Source: Polyangia bacterium (GTDB taxonomy: Bacteria > Myxococcota_A > Polyangia > Polyangiales > Sandaracinaceae). Taken from it: DNA of 32,368 nt. Each line of letters begins with the position of its first letter. Positions within the stretch are counted from its first letter, which is position 1. Shown one piece after another: positions 5,194 through 16,471 of this stretch. Below the pieces are notes generated by a model. The model was not told the DNA's origin. It saw only the letters and a program-made list of their open reading frames with translations, and did no database searches. The translations under genes and the position numbers were made by a program. The stretch spans positions 1 to 32,368 of the forward strand of contig JAUHXR010000069.1 of assembly GCA_030426845.1 (NCBI GenBank). The letters run 5' to 3'.

Positions 5194-5961
5194 ATGCGGA
5201 CCCTCCTCGCGCTCGTCTGTCTGAACCTGCTGGCATGCAACGACATGCCGGCCCCGGTCGACGCCGACGGGCGCGACTCGGGCGCGCGGGCGGACGCGGG
5301 CGAGACGGGCGGCGTGGACTCCGGCCCCGGCGGCGTGGACTCCGGCCCCGGCGGCGTCGACTCGGGTCCCCCGACGGGCTGCGTCTACCCGGCGAACCCC
5401 GTGGAGCCGATGGCGGTGGGCAGCGTCCTGTGGCCCTACGCGTGGCCCGAGGCGATCGACGGGACGGGCACCAACTTCCCGATCGACCTCGAGCAGGTCA
5501 CCTGCAACACCGACCCGAACATCGACTGGAGCCCGTTCGACGTCCTGGTGTTCATCGCCATCCCGGCCTGGTGACCGGACTGCCGCACGCACGCCGGTTC
5601 GGTGGCGCAGGTCGAGGAGCAGTTCGTCGCAGCGGGAGCCCAGATCATCTGGGTGCTGCAGCAGGACAGCTCGGTCCAACAAGGCACCGCGATGAGCTGC
5701 CGGGACTTCATGAACGCGAACCCCCGCAACAGCGACGCGGGGTGGTGCGTGGGGGACGGTGAGACCACCGGCCAGATGACGCCGAGCGACCGCACCTGGA
5801 CCGACTCACCGCTGGCCCTGGGGCGTGGCTACGACCTGATCGTGTCGCGTCGCGACATGGTGATCCGCGACGCGCCGACTCACGGCACGCCCTCGGGCAA
5901 CGAGAACCTGACCGGCGCCGAGCTCCTCGCTCGCGTCCAGACCGTCATCGACTCGCTCTGA
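5194..5961 (+). CDS. Putative selenocysteine-containing thioredoxin-like lipoprotein (in-frame TGA at codon 127)
   Basis: One reading frame runs from ATG 5194 to TGA 5959-5961, interrupted only by TGA at 5572-5574. Read through, it gives 255 residues: a lipoprotein signal (MRTLLALVCLNLLAC), a short Asp/Gly/Ser/Pro linker and a thioredoxin/peroxiredoxin-like domain. The TGA sits in VFIAIPAW-TGA-PDCR, which aligns with WATWCPPCR of TlpA/ResA-type thioredoxins. It therefore falls exactly on the first redox Cys, giving W-U-P-D-C with the resolving Cys at 130. Downstream coding is intact and keeps high third-position GC. A SECIS-like hairpin follows directly. The expected role is a membrane-anchored thiol/selenol oxidoreductase in the periplasm or at the cell surface. 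The alternative is a recent nonsense mutation of a Cys codon (TGC to TGA) or a sequencing error. No sel genes lie in the window. Confidence 0.72.
5308..5370 (+). repeat. Three tandem 21-bp units encoding GGVDSGP linker repeats
   Basis: Three consecutive 21-bp units encode GGVDSGP three times in the linker between the lipidated N-terminus and the thioredoxin-like domain. The first two units are identical and the third differs by a few synonymous bases, pointing to recent slippage or duplication. The repeat length keeps the frame. Confidence 0.85.
5573..5613 (+). promoter_or_regulatory. Candidate bacterial SECIS element
   Basis: Hand folding gives one hairpin beginning inside the TGA. Pairs are 5573-5576 with 5610-5613, 5581-5583 with 5607-5609, 5585-5586 with 5605-5606, and 5592-5596 with 5600-5604 (one G-U). 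The apical loop is GTT at 5597-5599. All right-arm bases are paired; the left arm has bulges at 5577-5580, 5584 and 5587-5591. The loop begins 22 bases after the TGA and its first base is G, as expected for bacterial SECIS elements read by SelB. In DNA this rich in GC other folds are possible, including a 6-bp pairing of 5573-5578 with 5594-5599. Confidence 0.5.
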
Positions 5962-5990: not shown

Positions 5991-6819
5991 AGGCGAGTCG
6001 CCGGGCGTGCCAGGCGCGGTGGGCGGGGACGCCGAGGCGCTCGAGGCCGGGGACGACCGCGCCGGTGATCGTGCCGTAGAAGACCTCGCGGGCGAGCGCG
6101 GGGTCGTCGGCGCCCAGCGCGATCTCGGGCTCGGTCGGCGGCACGAACGGGCCGGTCGGCGCGAGCTCTCGCTCGAGCGTCGCGAAGCCGACCTCGAGGA
6201 AGCGCTCGAGGGCGACGAGCTCGTCGGGGTTCGCCTCGAGCCACGGGCGCCACGCCTCGAGGTAGTGGAAGCCGAATTGTCCGTGGAGGATCTCGTCCGC
6301 GAGGAGCCGTCGGTTGACCTGCCGGAGGTACGGGTCGCTCATGCGATCGAGGACCGCGACGAAGCGCGCGCAGGCGACCATCTCGGAGCAGCACGTGGTG
6401 AAGATCACGTTGCGCAAGGCGCGTTGCTCGAGGCTGACGCCGGGGTGCTCGGCGAGGCGCTCGAGGGTCAGGTCGGCCTCGCCCTCGGGCTCACCGCCGA
6501 GCGCCTCCACGACCTCGGCGCAGGTCAGGGTGTGGCGCAGCTCGTCCTGCGCCATCCGGAGCATGACGACCTTCGCGTCGAGGCTCGCGTTGGCTTCGAA
6601 GAGCTGGTCGGCCAGCTGCGAGAAGACCGTGCTCGAGCGGTGCTCGAAGATCATCCGCGCGCGCCACTGCTCGCGCACCTCGGCGACCGTGTCGGCCGGG
6701 TAGAGGCTGGCGTCGAAGCGCACGCTCGGGTCGACCGTCACGCGCTCGAGCGCGGCGGCGACCCGCTGGTGCTCCTGCGCGAGCGGGGTCTCGCTCAGCG
6801 CGGGGCGGAGCCGGCTCAC
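5989..6819 (-). CDS. Ferritin-like di-iron protein
   Basis: 276 residues from GTG at 6819. The start is set by the 4-base GTGA overlap with the stop of the upstream lipoprotein gene, which implies translational coupling. The sequence is mostly helical and carries the ferritin-like ligand pattern: Glu in MIFEHRSS, ExxH in AQDELRH, Glu in TTCCSEMVACARF, and ExxH in LLADEILHGQFGFHY. In this fold the four helices bind two irons bridged by the glutamates and activate oxygen. The length exceeds ferritin proper, and the separated ExxH pairs resemble di-iron oxygenase-type members rather than iron-storage proteins. There is no signal peptide, so it is probably cytoplasmic. Being the last gene after two Cys-rich lipoproteins suggests it acts on, or with, those proteins or their metal. 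That link is inference and the substrate is unknown. Confidence 0.8.
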   Translation of the reverse strand: MSRLRPALSETPLAQEHQRVAAALERVTVDPSVRFDASLYPADTVAEVREQWRARMIFEHRSSTVFSQLADQLFEANASLDAKVVMLRMAQDELRHTLTCAEVVEALGGEPEGEADLTLERLAEHPGVSLEQRALRNVIFTTCCSEMVACARFVAVLDRMSDPYLRQVNRRLLADEILHGQFGFHYLEAWRPWLEANPDELVALERFLEVGFATLERELAPTGPFVPPTEPEIALGADDPALAREVFYGTITGAVVPGLERLGVPAHRAWHARRLA

Positions 6820-7187
6820 GCGGCGACGCTGGGCGGGAACAGGGGGCCGATCGCGAGGCAGCACATGACCTCGTCGTCGCCCTGGCAGAGGGGGAGCGGG
6901 CCCGCGTCGGCGCCGAAGGCGCACGAGCACGTCTCGCAGACGTGCGGCCCCGCGTCGGGCGGCGCGCCCGCGTCGGACAGGGGCCACCCCGCGTCTTCCC
7001 TGCCCGGCGGCCCGGCGTCGAAGCCGGGCGGCCCGGCGTCGGTGAGGATCGATGGCCCGCTGTCGCGCATGCCACCGCCCGCGTCGTCGCGTCCGTGGCT
7101 GTCCCCACAGCCGGTGGAGACACCGGCGAGGCCGGTGACGAGGGCGAGCGCGCGAGCCACGCGAAGGTAGTGAGGGGTCGAAGTCAA
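6816..7187 (-). CDS. Six-cysteine lipoprotein, downstream paralogue (lipoprotein B)
   Basis: 123 residues. It starts with TTG at 7187, five bases after a GGGAGG ribosome binding site. The signal peptide ends in a lipobox-like GVSTGC. A linker of about 50 residues rich in Asp-Ala-Gly-Pro follows. The C-terminal module has six Cys in the pattern C-x2-C-x-C-x11-C-x7-CC and ends LAIGPLFPPSVAA. Its N-terminus (MTSTPHYLRV) and C-terminal module are nearly the same as in the upstream gene, so they are tandem duplicates with diverged linkers. Its TGA stop overlaps the GTG of the ferritin-like gene. No known domain was recognised; the Cys module could bind metal, form disulfides or be enzymatically modified. 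Confidence 0.82.
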   Translation of the reverse strand: MTSTPHYLRVARALALVTGLAGVSTGCGDSHGRDDAGGGMRDSGPSILTDAGPPGFDAGPPGREDAGWPLSDAGAPPDAGPHVCETCSCAFGADAGPLPLCQGDDEVMCCLAIGPLFPPSVAA

Positions 7188-7231: not shown

Positions 7232-7801
7232 TCAGGCGGGGACACTCGGCGGGAAGAGCGGGCCGATCACCGCGCAGCAGATGCCGGCGCCCGGGACGCT
7301 GAAGCAGCTCGGCATGTCGCCCGCGTCGACGCCAGGGACCATGAGGCAGCTGCAGGTCGCGCAGAGGTCTCCTCCGTCGCGGCCGAAGCTGCCTGCGTCG
7401 GCGCGCGAGCCCGCGTCGGGGAACGCGATCGAGCCGTCGGGCCGGGGCGGGCTAGCGTCCGGCAGACCGAGGCCCGCGTCTCTGCGCGGCCCGCTGTCCA
7501 CGCCTGCCTCGAGCGGCCCGACGCCGGCGTCGGCCCGTCCCGCGTCGGCGATCGCCCCCGCGTCCATGCCGCCGGGCCCCGCGTCCATCGCGCCGGGGCC
7601 CGAGTCGACGTCGGTCGGGCCCGCGTCGCCCGGCCCGGAGTCCAGGCTCCCGGGCCCGGAGTCCCTCGTCTGGGCGCCCGAGTCCATGATGACCGGGCCG
7701 GCGTCGGTGCCGCCGCCCGAGTCGCAGGCCTGGACGCCGGCGAGGCCGGTGAGGAGCGCGAGCGCGCGGGTGACGCGCAGGTAGTGCGGGGTCGAAGTCA
7801 A
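7232..7801 (-). CDS. Six-cysteine lipoprotein, upstream paralogue (lipoprotein A)
   Basis: 189 residues. The TTG start at 7801 sits five bases after GGAGG, the same start codon and spacing as the downstream copy. The signal peptide ends GLAGVQAC. A long linker, about 100 residues of DAGP/DSGP-like repeats, leads to the C-terminal module C-x2-C-x-C-x13-C-x8-CC followed by AVIGPLFPPSVPA. Only the two ends are conserved between the copies: the signal region and the Cys module with IGPLFPPSV. That conservation suggests the module is the functional part and the linker only a spacer holding it away from the membrane. It is first of a three-gene set (44-base gap, then an overlap) ending in the ferritin-like protein. 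Function is unknown. Confidence 0.82.
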   Translation of the reverse strand: MTSTPHYLRVTRALALLTGLAGVQACDSGGGTDAGPVIMDSGAQTRDSGPGSLDSGPGDAGPTDVDSGPGAMDAGPGGMDAGAIADAGRADAGVGPLEAGVDSGPRRDAGLGLPDASPPRPDGSIAFPDAGSRADAGSFGRDGGDLCATCSCLMVPGVDAGDMPSCFSVPGAGICCAVIGPLFPPSVPA

Positions 7802-10415: not shown

Positions 10416-11615
10416 TCAGCGGCGCAGGGCGTAGACGAGCCGATCGATCGCGCCCGACAGGTCGCTGGTGCAGACCGAGGCCATCGCCACCCGCGCCCCC
10501 CGCGCCTCGAGCCCCTGCGCGAGCCGTGCTTCGCGGACCGGGGGGAACGCGAGGCCGGTGCCGGGCTCGTTGCACGAGGGGACCAAGCGGGTCGGGTTCA
10601 TCGGATCGGACCGCTGCTCCATGCGGTCGTCGCGGACTTCGGGGTCGGGGCTGATCAGCGCGGGCCAGTCGGTGGGCCCGTCCACCGGCGTCTGGAGATC
10701 GACCGGCACCCCGACGATCGGGACGAAGACCAATCGATCGGGAGCCCGGCGGAGCTGGAGGAGCCCCTCGACGTAGCGCTCGATCGGGTGCATCGCGGCT
10801 TGCGCGTGCACGAAGCACCGCAGGTTGAGATCTGCGGTGTAGACGGCGCTCGACGGGTTGAACAGGTCGGGGTCGCGCGCCGAGCAGTCCTCCTCGTCCG
10901 AGAGGGTGACGATGGCGAGCAGCGAGTCGTCGCGGACGAAGCCCTGGTGCCGGTCGTCGCCGTGGCCGAGCGTGTCGCCGAAGAAGCGGGGCGGCTCGTA
11001 GCCCGGCGCGGTGCCCGGGGTTGGCCGGGCGGGGCTCAGCGCCTTGAGGAGGGCCTCGAGGGGCTGCTCGAAGCCGCAGCCGCCGGTGCCATGGCTCAGG
11101 CAAGCCAGGTCCCGCGCCGGCTCGAGCGCCGGGTCGGTGGCTCGCCGCTGGAGCCACCGGGGATACTCGGGCACGCACCCAATGATGGCGAGGAGGCCGG
11201 CGGTCCGGAGCACGCCGTCGTCGCCGAAGCTCGAGTTGACGCACGTGGGGAGGGTGAAGCCGCCGGTGCCCATGTCGGTGGTGACGACGCCCGCCTGGAC
11301 CGTCTCGAACGGCTGGAGGTCGGCGACGCCGTCGCCGTCGACGTCGCCGCTCGCGAGGATCTCGAAGAGCCGCGGGAGCTCGGCGGTGAGGTTGGCCTGC
11401 TCCTCGGTCATGCTCCCGGAGTTGTCGATGACGAAGAGCAGGTCCAGGTCGGTCGCGAGGGCCGAGGGAGGGCCGGCATCGGGGATGCTCGGGGGCCCGG
11501 CGTCGGCCGGAGGATCGGCCGGCGTGGGGCAGCCGACCAGCAGCGCGAGGCCGAGCCAGGACGCGGCTCGTCGGTCCGGGGCGGCGCGGTCGTCGGGGCG
11601 TTGAGGGTCTCGCAC
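10416..11615 (-). CDS. VWA-domain lipoprotein, copy 1
   Basis: 399 residues from GTG 11615. The N-terminus has a basic stretch, a hydrophobic core and a lipobox-like LLVGC, then a DAGPPS linker. The von Willebrand A domain begins at LDLLFVIDNSGSM, whose D-x-S-x-S is the MIDAS metal site. A calcium-type loop DVDGDGVAD and DMGTGGFTLPTC follow. Conserved Cys residues (PTC, IGC, DLAC, GGCGFEQP, EEDCSARD, LRCF, PSC, VCT) suggest several disulfides. In this family the domain binds protein or ligand through a divalent ion on the cell surface. It is one of three paralogues in a row with the copies at 11695-12867 and 14798-15976. The downstream 3' region is the GTCGCAGC repeat. Confidence 0.85.
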   Translation of the reverse strand: MRDPQRPDDRAAPDRRAASWLGLALLVGCPTPADPPADAGPPSIPDAGPPSALATDLDLLFVIDNSGSMTEEQANLTAELPRLFEILASGDVDGDGVADLQPFETVQAGVVTTDMGTGGFTLPTCVNSSFGDDGVLRTAGLLAIIGCVPEYPRWLQRRATDPALEPARDLACLSHGTGGCGFEQPLEALLKALSPARPTPGTAPGYEPPRFFGDTLGHGDDRHQGFVRDDSLLAIVTLSDEEDCSARDPDLFNPSSAVYTADLNLRCFVHAQAAMHPIERYVEGLLQLRRAPDRLVFVPIVGVPVDLQTPVDGPTDWPALISPDPEVRDDRMEQRSDPMNPTRLVPSCNEPGTGLAFPPVREARLAQGLEARGARVAMASVCTSDLSGAIDRLVYALRR

Positions 11616-11670: not shown

Positions 11671-11695
11671 AGGCCGCCACCGGGGTTGGCGGCCT
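11671..11695 (-). terminator. Hairpin at the 3' end of VWA copy 2
   Basis: A perfect 9-bp stem (AGGCCGCCA 11671-11679 with TGGCGGCCT 11687-11695) closes a 7-base loop CCGGGGT as read on the plus strand. It touches the TGA of VWA copy 2. There is no T tract. The same loop and inner stem recur at 14774-14790 downstream of VWA copy 3. Confidence 0.5.
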
Positions 11696-12867
11696 CAGCG
11701 GCGCAGGGTGCGCGCGAGGACCTCGACCGCGTCGGCGAGGTCGCTCGTGCAGATCGACGCCAGGCCCACGCGCGCGCCGCGCTCCTCGAGCATGGAGGCG
11801 ACGCGAACGATCCGGAGGGGGGGGAACGCGAGCCCGGTGTCCGCTTCGTTGCACGAGGGGAACAGCCGCGTCGGGCTGGCGGGGTCGACGCGCTGGCGCA
11901 TCCGGTCGTCGCGTACCGACAGGTCCGCGCCGATGAGCGGCGGGAAGTCGATCGGCTGACCGGGCCCGGGCTCGAGGTCGCGCGGGATGCCGACGATCGG
12001 CATGAAGGCGAGGCGGTCGGGGCTGCGGCGCAGCTGGAGCAAGCCGTCGACGTAGCGGTCGAGCGGGTGGAGCGCCTCGCCCGCGAACGCGAAGCAACGC
12101 AGGTTGAGGTCCGCGTTGTAGGCCGCGCTGTCCCGGTTGAACAGCTCGGGGTCGCGCGCCGAGCAGTCGTCCTCGTCGGAGAAGACGACGATCGCGAGGA
12201 GCGAGTCGTCGCGCACGAAGCCCGCGTGGGCGCGGTCGCCGTGACCGGCGGTGTTGCCGAGGAACCGCGGCGAGGCGTAGTTGGCCGCGGTGCCCGCGTT
12301 CGCGGCCGCGGGGCTGAGCGCCTTGAGGACCGCCTCGAGGGGCTGCTCGAACCCGCAGCCGCGCGTCCCCGCGCTGAGGCAGGTGAGCGGCCGCGCGATC
12401 GCCTCGGGCGCGTCGCTCGCGCGCCACTCGATGAAGGATGGGTAGCTCGCCGCGCACCAGAGCGGGGCGGCGGGGGCGCTCGCGGTGCGGAGGATCCCGT
12501 CGTCGCCGAAGCTGGAGTTGGCGCAGGTCGGGACGGTGAAGCCGCCGGTGCCCATGTCGGCCGTGATCACACCCGCGTGCACGGTGTCGAACGGGCGGAA
12601 GTCTGCGACGCGGTCCCCGTCGAGGTCGCCCGTCGCGAGGATCTGGAAGAGCCACGGGAGCTGCGCGGCCAGGGCCTGCTGCTCGGACGTCAGGCTCCCG
12701 GACGTGTCGATCAGGAACAGCAGGTCCAGGTCGGTCGCGACCGGGAGCGGAGCGCCCGCGTCGAAGGGCCCCGAGTCGCCGGCTCCCGCGTCCGTATCGC
12801 GCGCGCCGCCGCAGGACGCGCTCGCCAGCGCCAGGAGGCACGCGGCCAAGCGCGGGAGCGCGTACAC
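11695..12867 (-). CDS. VWA-domain lipoprotein, copy 2
   Basis: 390 residues. I chose the GTG at 12867 because GGAGGA lies six bases upstream, it begins directly with a signal peptide (VYALPRLAACLLALASASC, lipobox ASASC), and it leaves a 23-base gap after the Cys-repeat gene. An ATG at 12903 would overlap that gene. After a DAGAGDSGP linker the VWA domain carries MIDAS DTSGSL, then DLDGDRVAD, DMGTGGFTVPTC, GCGFEQPLEAVLKALSP and DEDDCSARDPELFN. It is the same order of motifs and Cys as copy 1. The calcium-type loop is altered here (DLDGDR rather than DVDGDG). It is probably co-transcribed with the upstream Cys-repeat lipoprotein gene. Confidence 0.86.
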   Translation of the reverse strand: MYALPRLAACLLALASASCGGARDTDAGAGDSGPFDAGAPLPVATDLDLLFLIDTSGSLTSEQQALAAQLPWLFQILATGDLDGDRVADFRPFDTVHAGVITADMGTGGFTVPTCANSSFGDDGILRTASAPAAPLWCAASYPSFIEWRASDAPEAIARPLTCLSAGTRGCGFEQPLEAVLKALSPAAANAGTAANYASPRFLGNTAGHGDRAHAGFVRDDSLLAIVVFSDEDDCSARDPELFNRDSAAYNADLNLRCFAFAGEALHPLDRYVDGLLQLRRSPDRLAFMPIVGIPRDLEPGPGQPIDFPPLIGADLSVRDDRMRQRVDPASPTRLFPSCNEADTGLAFPPLRIVRVASMLEERGARVGLASICTSDLADAVEVLARTLRR

Positions 12868-12890
12868 GCGCGTCCTCCGCGACCCTCGCG

Positions 12891-14690
12891 CTACCGGCAG
12901 CACAGCGGCACGCCGCAGGACTCACTCACCGAGCTCGTGCAGGTCATGGTCGAGATGCAGCCGGGGAACATCGGTCCGCGCGTGTAGAACGGTGAGCTGC
13001 CGTCGACGTGCACGTAGATGTTGGCCGCGCCGCCGCAGGCGCAGGTCGCCGCGCCTCCCGTGCAGGAGCAGCCGGAGGTCGACAGGTAGCTGAGGACGGT
13101 GGGCGCGCAGAGGGTGGAGCCAGGGCAGAGATCCCAGCCCGCGCCGAGCGCCATGCACGACGTGCGCGCGGTGGCCTGGTCGGCGGCCGACACCGTGCTC
13201 GGCATGTAGACGCAGGTGGTGCCCTCGAAGATGCCCGGGCAGGGGTTGATCCCGCAGAAGCCCATGGTGCACGTGCCGGTGGCGCAGTCGCTCGCGACCG
13301 CGCACCGGTCGTTGTCGGGGCAGCGGGGGCAGGCGGTGGAGCCGCCGCAGTCGACGTCGGTCTCGCCGCCGTTGGTCACGCCGTCGGCGCAGGTGGGCGC
13401 GTCGCAGGTGCCGCCCGTGCAGACGCCGGAGAGGCAGTCGGTCCCCACGACGCAGGCCAGCCCGTCGGCGCAGCCGAGGCACGTGCCGCCGCCGCAGTCG
13501 ATGTCGGTCTCGGCCCCGTTGAGGAGGCCGTCGCCGCAGCCCGCCGCGTTGCAGCGCATCGAGGCCCCGTCGCAGAGACCCGAGAGGCAGTCCGCCGGGC
13601 CGGTGCACATCAACCCGGTGCCGCAGCCCCCACACACGCTCCCGCCGCAGTCCACGTCGGTCTCGTCCTGGTTGCGCACCGAGTCGGAGCAGCTGACGCA
13701 CACGCCGGCCTCGCAGACGCCCGAGGCGCAGTCGGTCGGCCCGGTGCAGGTGGCGCCGTCCGCGCAGGCCGCGCAGTTGGGCCCGCCGCAGTCGACGTCG
13801 GACTCGCCCTGGTTCTGCACGCCGTCGGTGCAGCTGATGCAAACGTTGCTGTCGCACGTGCCGTCGAGGCAGTCGCCGTCGACGAGGCACATCTGGCCGG
13901 CCGCGCACGGGTCGCAGGTCGCGCCGCCGCAGTCGACGTCCGTCTCATCGCCGTTGGTGGTCATGTCCACGCAGGACACGCAGCCCATCGCCACGCAGCG
14001 GTTGCTCACGCAGTCCGCGTCGATGAGGCAGCCGAGCGTGTCGGCGCAGGGCGGGCAGGTCGCGCCGCCGCAGTCGAGGCTCGTCTCGTCCTGGTTCTGC
14101 ACGTTGTCGTTGCAGGCCGCGGCCGTGCACTCGCCCATCGCGCAGATCTGGCTCTCGCAGTCGCCGTTGGTCACGCAGTCGAGGCTCGGGCCGCAGGGCG
14201 GGCACATGGAGCCGCCGCAGTCGACGTCCGTCTCGTCGAGGTTCTGGAGGCCGTCCTCGCACGAGCTCATCGTGCACTCGCCGGCCCGGCAGCGGCCGCT
14301 GAGGCACTGGTCGTTCGAGGAGCAGGTCTGGCCGCCGCCGCAGAGGGGGCAGGGGTCTGCCCCGCAGTCCACGCCCGTCTCGGTCCCGTTGCGCACGCCG
14401 TCCATGCAGGTGGGCGTCAGGCACCGGCCGCGGCCGCAGACCCCGCTCTCGCAGTCGGTGCCCGCGCCGCAGGGCTCCCCGTCGGCGCAGGCGTCGCACG
14501 AGCCGCCGCAGTCGATGCCCGTCTCGTCGCCGTTGCGCTCGCCGTCGTCGCAGAGCGCGCCGGGCGGGCCGGCGTCCATCGGGCCGGAGTCGCGCCGGGC
14601 ACCTGCGTCGAACCCGGGGGGATCGCCGTCACAGCCGACGAGGGCGAGGGGCGAGAGGAGCGCGAGACACGCGAGCTGGCGGTACTTCAT
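12891..14690 (-). CDS. Cysteine-rich repeat lipoprotein (nine repeats)
   Basis: 599 residues from ATG 14690 (MKYRQLACLALLSPLALVGC, a good lipoprotein signal). After a DAGARRDSGPMDAGP linker come nine repeats of about 45-49 residues with consensus C-x-DG-x-x-NGDETDVDCGG-x-x-C-x-x-CADG-x-x-C, ending DC-x-SG-x-C-x-x-G-x-C, eight Cys per repeat. The acidic N-x-DETD-x-DCGG core looks like a calcium site. Repeats of this kind are common on surface proteins of myxobacteria. The last 115 residues form a different Cys-rich domain (ARTSCMALGAGWDLCPG, then GCSCTGG and CACGG) ending VPLCCR, loosely similar to lectin-like sugar-binding folds; that similarity is weak. A long extracellular stalk with a C-terminal binding head is my inference. 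It sits between VWA copies 3 and 2. Confidence 0.85.
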   Translation of the reverse strand: MKYRQLACLALLSPLALVGCDGDPPGFDAGARRDSGPMDAGPPGALCDDGERNGDETGIDCGGSCDACADGEPCGAGTDCESGVCGRGRCLTPTCMDGVRNGTETGVDCGADPCPLCGGGQTCSSNDQCLSGRCRAGECTMSSCEDGLQNLDETDVDCGGSMCPPCGPSLDCVTNGDCESQICAMGECTAAACNDNVQNQDETSLDCGGATCPPCADTLGCLIDADCVSNRCVAMGCVSCVDMTTNGDETDVDCGGATCDPCAAGQMCLVDGDCLDGTCDSNVCISCTDGVQNQGESDVDCGGPNCAACADGATCTGPTDCASGVCEAGVCVSCSDSVRNQDETDVDCGGSVCGGCGTGLMCTGPADCLSGLCDGASMRCNAAGCGDGLLNGAETDIDCGGGTCLGCADGLACVVGTDCLSGVCTGGTCDAPTCADGVTNGGETDVDCGGSTACPRCPDNDRCAVASDCATGTCTMGFCGINPCPGIFEGTTCVYMPSTVSAADQATARTSCMALGAGWDLCPGSTLCAPTVLSYLSTSGCSCTGGAATCACGGAANIYVHVDGSSPFYTRGPMFPGCISTMTCTSSVSESCGVPLCCR

Positions 14691-14773
14691 ACACCCACCC
14701 AAGCCTACTTCCCCGATCGAGGCAAGCCGGACGCGTGCGCGGCCCTCGCCCGATCCTCTGGACCGTCACCGCG

Positions 14774-14797: not shown

Positions 14798-15976
14798 TCA
14801 GCGCCGCAGGGCGTAGACGAGCCGATCGACCGCGCCGGAGAGGTCATTCGTGCAGATGGAGGCCACGGACACGCGGGCGCCGCGGCGGTCCAGCTCCGAG
14901 GCGGCGCGGACGATGCGGACCGGCGGGAAGGCGAGGCCGGTCCCGGGCTCGTCGCAGGACGGGAAGAGCCGGACGGGGTTGGTCGGATCGATGCGCTCCA
15001 CCATGCGGTCGTCGCGCACCGCAGGGTCGGGGCTGATGAGGGGCGGGAAGCTCGGCGGCACGTCGGCTGGGCCCTCGAGGTCGCGGGGGATTCCCACGAT
15101 GGGAACGAACGCGAGCCGGTCCGGGCTGCGCCGGAGCTGGAGCAGGCCGTCGACGTAGCGGCTCACTGGATGGAGCGCCTCGTTCGCGTGGGCCAAGCAG
15201 CGCTGGTTGAGGTCGGCCTGGTAGACCCCGCTCGCCAGGTTGAACAGCTCCGGGTCATGCGCCGAGCAGTCATCCTCGTCGCTGAAGAGGACCACCGCGA
15301 GGAGGGAGTCGTCGCGGGCGAACCCGCGGTGGCGATCGTCGCCGTGACCCTGGGCGTTGGCGAAGAACCGCGGCGGCTCGTAGCCGGCCGCCGTGCCCGG
15401 GGTCGCGCGCGCGGGGCTGAGGGCCTTGAGGATCGCCTCGAGGGGCTGCTCGAAGCCGCAGCCCGAGGTGCCCTGGCCGATGCACGCGAGCGGGCGCGCG
15501 ATAGCCTCTGCCGGGTCGTCCGCGCGCCACTGGAGGAACGGGGGGTAGCGCGCCTCGCAGCCGGCGAGCGCGGTGCTGCCGGCGGTCTGCAGGACTCCGT
15601 CGTCGCCGAACATCGAGTTGGTGCAGGTCGGGACGTTGAACCCGCCGGTGCCCATGTCGGCGTTGATGACCCCGGCCTGCACCGTGTCGAAGGGGCGGAC
15701 GTCGGCCGCGCCGTCGCCGTCGATGTCGCCGCTCGCGAGGATCTCGAACAGGCGCGGGAGCGCGGCCCCGAGCGCGGCCTGCTCTTCCGAGAGGCTCGCC
15801 GAGGTGTCGATGAGGAAGAGCAGGTCGAGGTCGTTCGCGGGCGGCGGCGGCGGCCCCGCGTCGGGGGGCGCCGCGTCACCGGGGCCACCGTCGGCGGGCT
15901 CGGCGCTCGAGCAGGCGGCCAGGATCAGCATCACGCTCGAGGCTCGAACGAGGGTGGCAAGTCGCAAGGAAGTCAT
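14798..15976 (-). CDS. VWA-domain lipoprotein, copy 3
   Basis: 392 residues from ATG 15976 (MTSLRLATLVRASSVMLILAACSSA, lipobox LAAC). The linker is a DGGPGDAAPPDAGPP stretch. The VWA domain has MIDAS DTSASL, calcium-type loop DIDGDGAAD, DMGTGGFNVPTC, GCGFEQPLEAILKALSP and DEDDCSAHDPELFN, and ends SGAVDRLVYALRR exactly like copy 1. It is first in the run copy 3, Cys-repeat, copy 2, copy 1, all on the minus strand. Copy 1 and copy 3 share the C-terminal VDRLVYALRR-type ending, whereas copy 2 ends VLARTLRR. They arose by duplication. A surface adhesion or ligand-binding role is likely but not shown. Confidence 0.86.
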   Translation of the reverse strand: MTSLRLATLVRASSVMLILAACSSAEPADGGPGDAAPPDAGPPPPPANDLDLLFLIDTSASLSEEQAALGAALPRLFEILASGDIDGDGAADVRPFDTVQAGVINADMGTGGFNVPTCTNSMFGDDGVLQTAGSTALAGCEARYPPFLQWRADDPAEAIARPLACIGQGTSGCGFEQPLEAILKALSPARATPGTAAGYEPPRFFANAQGHGDDRHRGFARDDSLLAVVLFSDEDDCSAHDPELFNLASGVYQADLNQRCLAHANEALHPVSRYVDGLLQLRRSPDRLAFVPIVGIPRDLEGPADVPPSFPPLISPDPAVRDDRMVERIDPTNPVRLFPSCDEPGTGLAFPPVRIVRAASELDRRGARVSVASICTNDLSGAVDRLVYALRR

Positions 15977-16471
15977 GTGACCAGCGTAGCAGTATCTCGC
16001 CAAAGGGATCTTGACCGATTGACCACGGTCCTCGACGCCGATCGCGGCGCCGCGCCCTCCTCGACGATATGCGGCATCCCCTCGACGGTCGCAGCGCCAA
16101 CCTCGACGCCAACCTCGACGCCGAGGCCTCGCGCTGGATCGATCAAGATCCCTGTGGCGAGGTGAAAGTGAGCGCGCGCGGAGAGCGCATCTGCGTCAAG
16201 CCACCTGAGCCTCTTGGGGAGCGGCGCCAGCGAGCGCGTCCGCCGGGGGCTCGCTCGAGGATGGATGCGACTCTCCGGTGCGCGCGGGTCGGGAGCCGGT
16301 CGGGCCGGCATGCGGGTGGACGAACGGCAGACGCAGTAGCCGTCGAGCACCTCGGTCGGCGCCGACGGCTCGAGCGCGATCGCCTCGGCCTCGTGCACCT
16401 CGGGCGCCTCCGTGCGGGCGCTCTCTTGCCCCGGCGCCGCGACGGGGCTACTCCGAGGCGGTGGGTGGGCA
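15977..16471. other. Intergenic region of about 500 bases without a supported gene
   Basis: Open frames exist on both strands here (for example minus-strand 15973-16398), but none shows a domain, signal peptide, ribosome binding site or consistent third-position GC bias. The region separates divergent genes, VWA copy 3 (minus) and the PilZ-like gene (plus), so it should hold both promoters; I could not assign hexamers with confidence. It also contains a 12-bp tandem repeat. Confidence 0.5.
16095..16122. repeat. 12-bp tandem repeat, 2.3 copies
   Basis: CGCCAACCTCGA occurs at 16095-16106 and 16107-16118 and continues CGCC to 16122, in the intergenic region upstream of VWA copy 3. It is too short to say more. 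Confidence 0.7.

Follow-up and report, generated by a model that had tools for sequence, protein, structure and literature searches.

A conserved hairpin downstream of an in-frame UGA is a probable bacterial SECIS in a predicted redox lipoprotein gene of the Myxococcota

The selenocysteine insertion sequence (SECIS) of E. coli fdhF is the prototype of the bacterial elements. SECIS-directed insertion of selenocysteine (Sec) is textbook biology, and UxxC proteins with AhpC-TSA/Redoxin-like domains are a known kind of selenoprotein. The published rule for bacterial SECIS elements describes an apical loop of 3-9 nt on an upper stem of 4-16 bp, with a G among the first two loop bases and then G/U, a spacing of 16-37 nt between the UGA and the loop, and an energy of -7.5 kcal/mol or lower (PMC13188914). 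Here, we analyzed a 32,368-nt contig stretch from a Sandaracinaceae genome (hereafter, the window) and found a hairpin at 5588-5607 that, with a probability of about 0.93 on sequence evidence, would serve as the SECIS for Sec at the UGA of a secreted redox protein. The coordinates of the locus are collected in Table 1.

Table 1. Features of the predicted selenoprotein gene and its putative SECIS, in window coordinates
Feature	Position	Strand	Basis or remark
Predicted selenoprotein gene	5194-5961	+	255 aa with the TGA read as Sec; terminal TGA 5959-5961
UGA, predicted to be read as selenocysteine (U127)	5572-5574	+	TGA at the same codon in 21/21 family members; Cys in inspected distant relatives
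Redox motif UPDC (UxxC)	5572-5583	+	U127 and C130 invariant, n = 21 sequences
Putative bSECIS hairpin core	5588-5607	+	Folds, pair counts, recoding test, Cys-homologue control
Hairpin pairs	5588-5607, 5589-5606, 5590-5605, 5592-5604, 5593-5603, 5594-5602, 5595-5601, 5596-5600	+	Bulged A5591
Apical loop G(GUU)C	5596-5600	+	Folds; rule as stated in PMC13188914

The open frame (5194-5958, 255 codons) is interrupted solely by the in-frame TGA, and translation with table 11 splits the gene into ORFs at 5194-5574 and 5602-5961, the two pieces into which standard annotation would break it. The product starts with a lipoprotein-type signal peptide and lipobox (MRTLLALVCLNLLAC), followed by an Asp/Gly/Ser-rich linker and a thioredoxin/AhpC-TSA-like domain whose active-site stretch reads DVLVFIAIPAWUPDC; the family product also has a conserved C-terminal block of its own (CVGD..T, HGT..GNEN). 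The signal peptide and the redox motif suggest that the protein is probably a secreted, lipid-anchored thiol/selenol redox protein with a likely role in extracytoplasmic thiol-disulfide or peroxide chemistry, in which Sec would likely permit faster or more oxidation-resistant catalysis. A Pfam scan returned weak AhpC-TSA and Redoxin matches for 8 of 8 members. The window's protein matches them with E values of 6.7e-5 and 1e-4, respectively, and falls below the gathering cut-offs of both families (23.3 against 26 bits for PF00578; 22.6 against 26.6 bits for PF08534), so it can be called only AhpC-TSA-like or Redoxin-like. None of the NCBIfam family models matches any of the eight members even at E <= 1, no solved structure searched by sequence matches the window's protein, and no plasmid relatives of the gene were found.

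The protein is conserved on both sides of the TGA in 20 further homologues. A paralogue in the same genome (72% identical) and an orthologue in another genus within the family (60% identical) each have one TGA at the same codon, the orthologue being the sole match in a contig scan of GTDB, apparently on the Sandaracinaceae MAG contig JAHBWG010000069.1. The remaining TGA homologues are 42-55% identical and spread across the phylum. After class and phylum searches, the close members total 21; each has a single TGA, and none has Cys in its place. The distant relatives that we inspected carry WCxxC at the UGA position.

The genome also encodes the machinery for Sec insertion. Its tRNA-Sec (78.3 bits, on contig C428) is flanked on one side by a selA-like ORF, which was recognized by eye beside the tRNA and has no model score, and on the other side, 69 bases away, by selB, which scores above its model cut-off and contains the winged-helix SelB-wing_3 domain. 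A selD gene, likewise above its cut-off, lies on contig C311 and has one in-frame TGA of its own, followed by a hairpin that also satisfies the bacterial SECIS rule and is, judging by its sequence, probably a second SECIS of the same genome. At that locus (C311:2309-3235, minus strand), the TGA lies in ESGGUAAK, and the hairpin has seven pairs and a CGUGA loop 26 nt downstream. In a test of nine genomes of the same family, tRNA-Sec scored 75-78 bits in the two that carry the TGA gene, and nothing exceeded 50.4 bits in the other seven. Of twelve further genomes of the phylum with the TGA gene, ten have a tRNA-Sec, the two without it being 90% and 73% complete. Overall, no tRNA-Sec was found in three genomes with the TGA gene. 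Two of them, G158 at 71% completeness and G524 at 73%, are clearly incomplete, whereas G425 reaches 90%. Conservation of the TGA in homologues, Cys at the same position in distant relatives and the presence of the machinery in the genome together mark the TGA as almost certainly a Sec codon.

The hairpin consists of 8 bp around a GUU triloop (5597-5599), has G as its first loop base and folds at -10.6 kcal/mol. It starts 13 nt after the UGA, which places its loop 21 nt (counted as GGUUC) or 22 nt (counted as GUU, with 5575-5596 between) downstream, in agreement with the initial annotation, which had located a GTT loop with a leading G 22 bases after the TGA. Its statement that distance and loop fit the bacterial SECIS rule was likewise confirmed, with loop size, G position, spacing and energy all inside the published limits. 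When at least the first 8 nt after the UGA were omitted from folding, these being bases that a stalled ribosome would be expected to cover, the minimum-energy structure paired 5588-5590 and 5592-5596 with 5600-5607 whichever of the tested starts and ends was used, the latest start giving the same hairpin one pair shorter. The isolated 49-nt segment 5572-5620, for which a 14-pair stem beginning within the TGA had been proposed, instead prefers a different apex (loop 5593-5596) and does not exceed its shuffles in stability (z = 0.17), and another stem wins in a 111-nt context (z = -1.71). Loss of the apex at minimum energy, which had been named as grounds for abandoning the hairpin, thus formally occurs in these two segments but not when the bases under the presumed stalled ribosome are omitted. 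An Rfam scan of 5400-5800 gave chance matches only, all below gathering scores. The hairpin falls within the codons of T132 to A138 and lies 3' of the UPDC motif, so that the RNA signal constrains the stretch after the active site rather than the CxxC residues; the suggestion that structure and motif are read from the same bases therefore gives way to one of adjacent elements.

The hairpin is conserved throughout the family. In 21 of 21 TGA genes, the apical loop starts 21-23 nt after the UGA and has G in its first two bases, against a recoding expectation of 6.5 of 21, although the sequences are related by ancestry and nominal probabilities are overstated and ordinal only. Of 22 Cys homologues put through the same geometric test, just one passes. 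The geometry and a cut-off of -7.0 kcal/mol were chosen after the folds had been seen; at -7.5 kcal/mol, 20 of the 21 members pass, and the remaining one stands at -7.2. The alignment of the 21 sequences is gap-free from the UGA onward, and a single consensus structure fits only 12 of them, with bulge position and register varying between subgroups. Within this class of 12, pairing holds in 90.5% of cells compared with 80.0% in shuffles, and the covariation score exceeds all 500 shuffles. Pair 5588/5607 is unbroken in all 12 of these members, which share one lower helix (CG in 6, GC in 4, AU in 2); the other stem pairs are nearly invariant, and the two-sided covariation comes mainly from this one pair. 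Inspection of the folds places the bulge at A5591 in seven members, including the window's, at C5592 in five and on the 3' side, near 5604, in another five, whereas four members have no bulge, a stem of the form CACGC-loop-GCGUG and the Ser codon AGC instead of TCG. At loop codon 8, Ser is encoded by AGT in 7 of 7 cases, whereas in the remainder of these genes AGT accounts for 9 of the 238 Ser codons.

The contrast between TGA genes and Cys homologues, the covarying pair and the presence of selA, selB, selD and tRNA-Sec together support the SECIS-like reading that the initial annotation had offered. Homologues with TGA that lack a comparable hairpin were sought as a refutation, and there were none among the 21 TGA genes. 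The compensatory changes that it had anticipated in homologues are present at pair 5588/5607 and absent from the basal pairs. We see about even odds for a broader proposal, namely that these genes constitute an undescribed Myxococcota-type selenoprotein family in which Sec is apparently obligatory, and in which the SECIS keeps its loop and spacing even as the bulge changes position and Ser is encoded now by TCG, now by AGC; the RNA fold and the protein would then evolve under joint constraint.

In a single sequence, such a hairpin is weak evidence, and it is the comparison that carries the case. Of all TGAs in this GC-rich window, counted over both strands (n = 486), 57% satisfy the generic rule for bacterial SECIS elements and 11% the narrower geometry found here. 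A SECIS call in GC-rich genomes must therefore rest on comparison, since the majority of TGAs fit the generic rule. For the window's gene alone, 37% of synonymous recodings also qualify, and the recoding p is 0.095. The energy profile under synonymous recoding has its strongest negative signal 10-36 nt after the UGA (combined z = -4.66, single genes being weak). Codon identity is 0.69 in the hairpin and 0.58 +/- 0.22 in the rest of the gene, not clearly higher. A codon-bias scan of the window found five TGAs with protein-like bias on both sides and, apart from the TGA at 5572-5574, no other convincing candidate for a Sec codon.

These data also bear on other explanations of the locus. If the TGA were an ordinary stop, as the two table 11 ORFs would have it, the gene would be truncated at 126 aa, and its downstream half would be either an independent ORF with GTG at 5602 or what is left of a pseudogene. 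We consider this extremely improbable, given that the halves form one conserved Trx-like domain in 21 sequences, that the TGA falls exactly on the catalytic U/CxxC, and that the domain is uninterrupted in Cys homologues. Because both halves align as one domain, the TGA is neither a stop nor a lesion, and the UGA is an intact coding position. The open frame through the TGA is all that favors a reading of the codon as another amino acid, for example Trp via a reassigned code or a suppressor tRNA. However, the homologous residue is Cys, the invariant Trp being a different residue that precedes it; the genome encodes tRNA-Sec, SelB and SelD; and among the five TGAs with protein-like bias only this one lies in a redox motif; we give such a decoding next to no credence.

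An alternative that is less remote, if still unlikely, accepts Sec at the TGA but assigns its insertion to another fold, either a 9-bp stem (5574-5582/5595-5603) or the 14-pair stem, and regards 5588-5607 as incidental. These or similar folds are indeed the minimum-energy structures of some isolated segments. Over the 21 homologues, however, the 9-bp stem is 79.9% paired compared with 78.6% in shuffles, with nothing above the shuffles, and the 14-pair stem, at its basal pairs 5573-5576/5610-5613 and 5581-5582/5608-5609, is 61.1% paired compared with 62.6% and has no two-sided changes. Both stems, moreover, require bases that would lie under a ribosome stalled at the UGA. The 9-bp stem and the basal stem were rejected on this alignment, and the hairpin at 5588-5607 is our preferred SECIS.

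By analogy with described systems, we infer that SelB binds this hairpin and that Sec is incorporated at the UGA. Once the UGA reaches the A site of the ribosome, the apical loop GGUUC would be bound by the C-terminal winged-helix domain of SelB in its complex with GTP and Sec-tRNA-Sec, and the complex would thus be held beside the A site. Sec would then be inserted at the UGA instead of release-factor termination, after which the hairpin would be melted and translated as T-H-A-G-S-V-A.

In-frame TGAs also occur at several other loci. L035 (G169:C176) contains a tandem pair of putative Sec genes of the window's family, with TGAs at 1888 and 2773, both with the family's hairpin. A distant TlpA-like homologue on the minus strand of L046 (G015:C329) has its TGA in LWUSVC; the hairpin that comes next, with a perfect 7-bp stem (GUGAGGC-AGGUC-GCCUCAC), has its loop 20 nt after the UGA. 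In L063 (G056:C11:6000-14000, minus strand), five consecutive paralogous UxxC genes lie within ~4 kb, with an in-frame TGA in each, and one more such gene occurs on a separate contig (L062, G056:C445). Each of these genes has its own hairpin 15-17 nt after the UGA, and the stems differ (CUGCG-CGUGU-CGCAG, CUGAC-CGUGU-GUCAG, GAGCG-GGUC-CGCUC, CUCGCG-GGUC-CGCGAG). A tandem selenoprotein gene array of this kind seems unusual.

The minus strand of the window also contains two groups of paralogues. Adjacent small Cys-rich ORFs at 6816-7187 and 7232-7801, probably secreted, have a common start (MTSTPHYLRV) and a common end (GPLFPPSV). Three lipoprotein-like paralogues are encoded close together at 10416-11615, 11695-12903 and 14798-16003. 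They have a D-x-S-x-S motif that by eye resembles von Willebrand A, and a repeat protein with DVDCGG repeats (12891-14702) lies between two of them.

Our study adds a well-supported Sec-using lipoprotein family for this bacterial group, on which a literature search found no relevant selenoprotein paper. Compared by name, no entry in a 2026 inventory of 119 selenoprotein families is obviously this family, although it could fall under the Prx-like or Redoxin entries. The family is of the known UxxC AhpC-TSA/Redoxin-like kind, and no curated model searched matches it. Like the Prx-like thiol:disulfide oxidoreductase (PF00578) and Redoxin-family (PF08534) selenoproteins, the window's protein has an AhpC-TSA/Redoxin-like domain, a UxxC motif and Cys relatives; it differs in its sub-cut-off scores, the lack of an NCBIfam match, its predicted lipoprotein nature, its Asp/Gly/Ser-rich linker and its C-terminal block. 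SaoT and the HUIPC-motif selenoproteins (NF040730, NF047660) are also thioredoxin-like UxxC proteins, whereas the eight members of this family have no NCBIfam match at E 1. An alignment of 21 SECIS elements whose stems have diverged while their spacing is fixed should help to refine models of bacterial SECIS elements and to test how SelB recognizes them. These elements agree with the bSECIS consensus in lying directly 3' of the UGA and inside the coding region, and in their small loop, G position, spacing and, for 20 of the 21, energy, whereas the family is distinguished by an RGUUC loop 21-22 nt after the UGA and by one bulged stem nucleotide (A5591; C5592 or near 5604 in relatives) that is lacking only in the CACGC-CGGGA-GCGUG subgroup.
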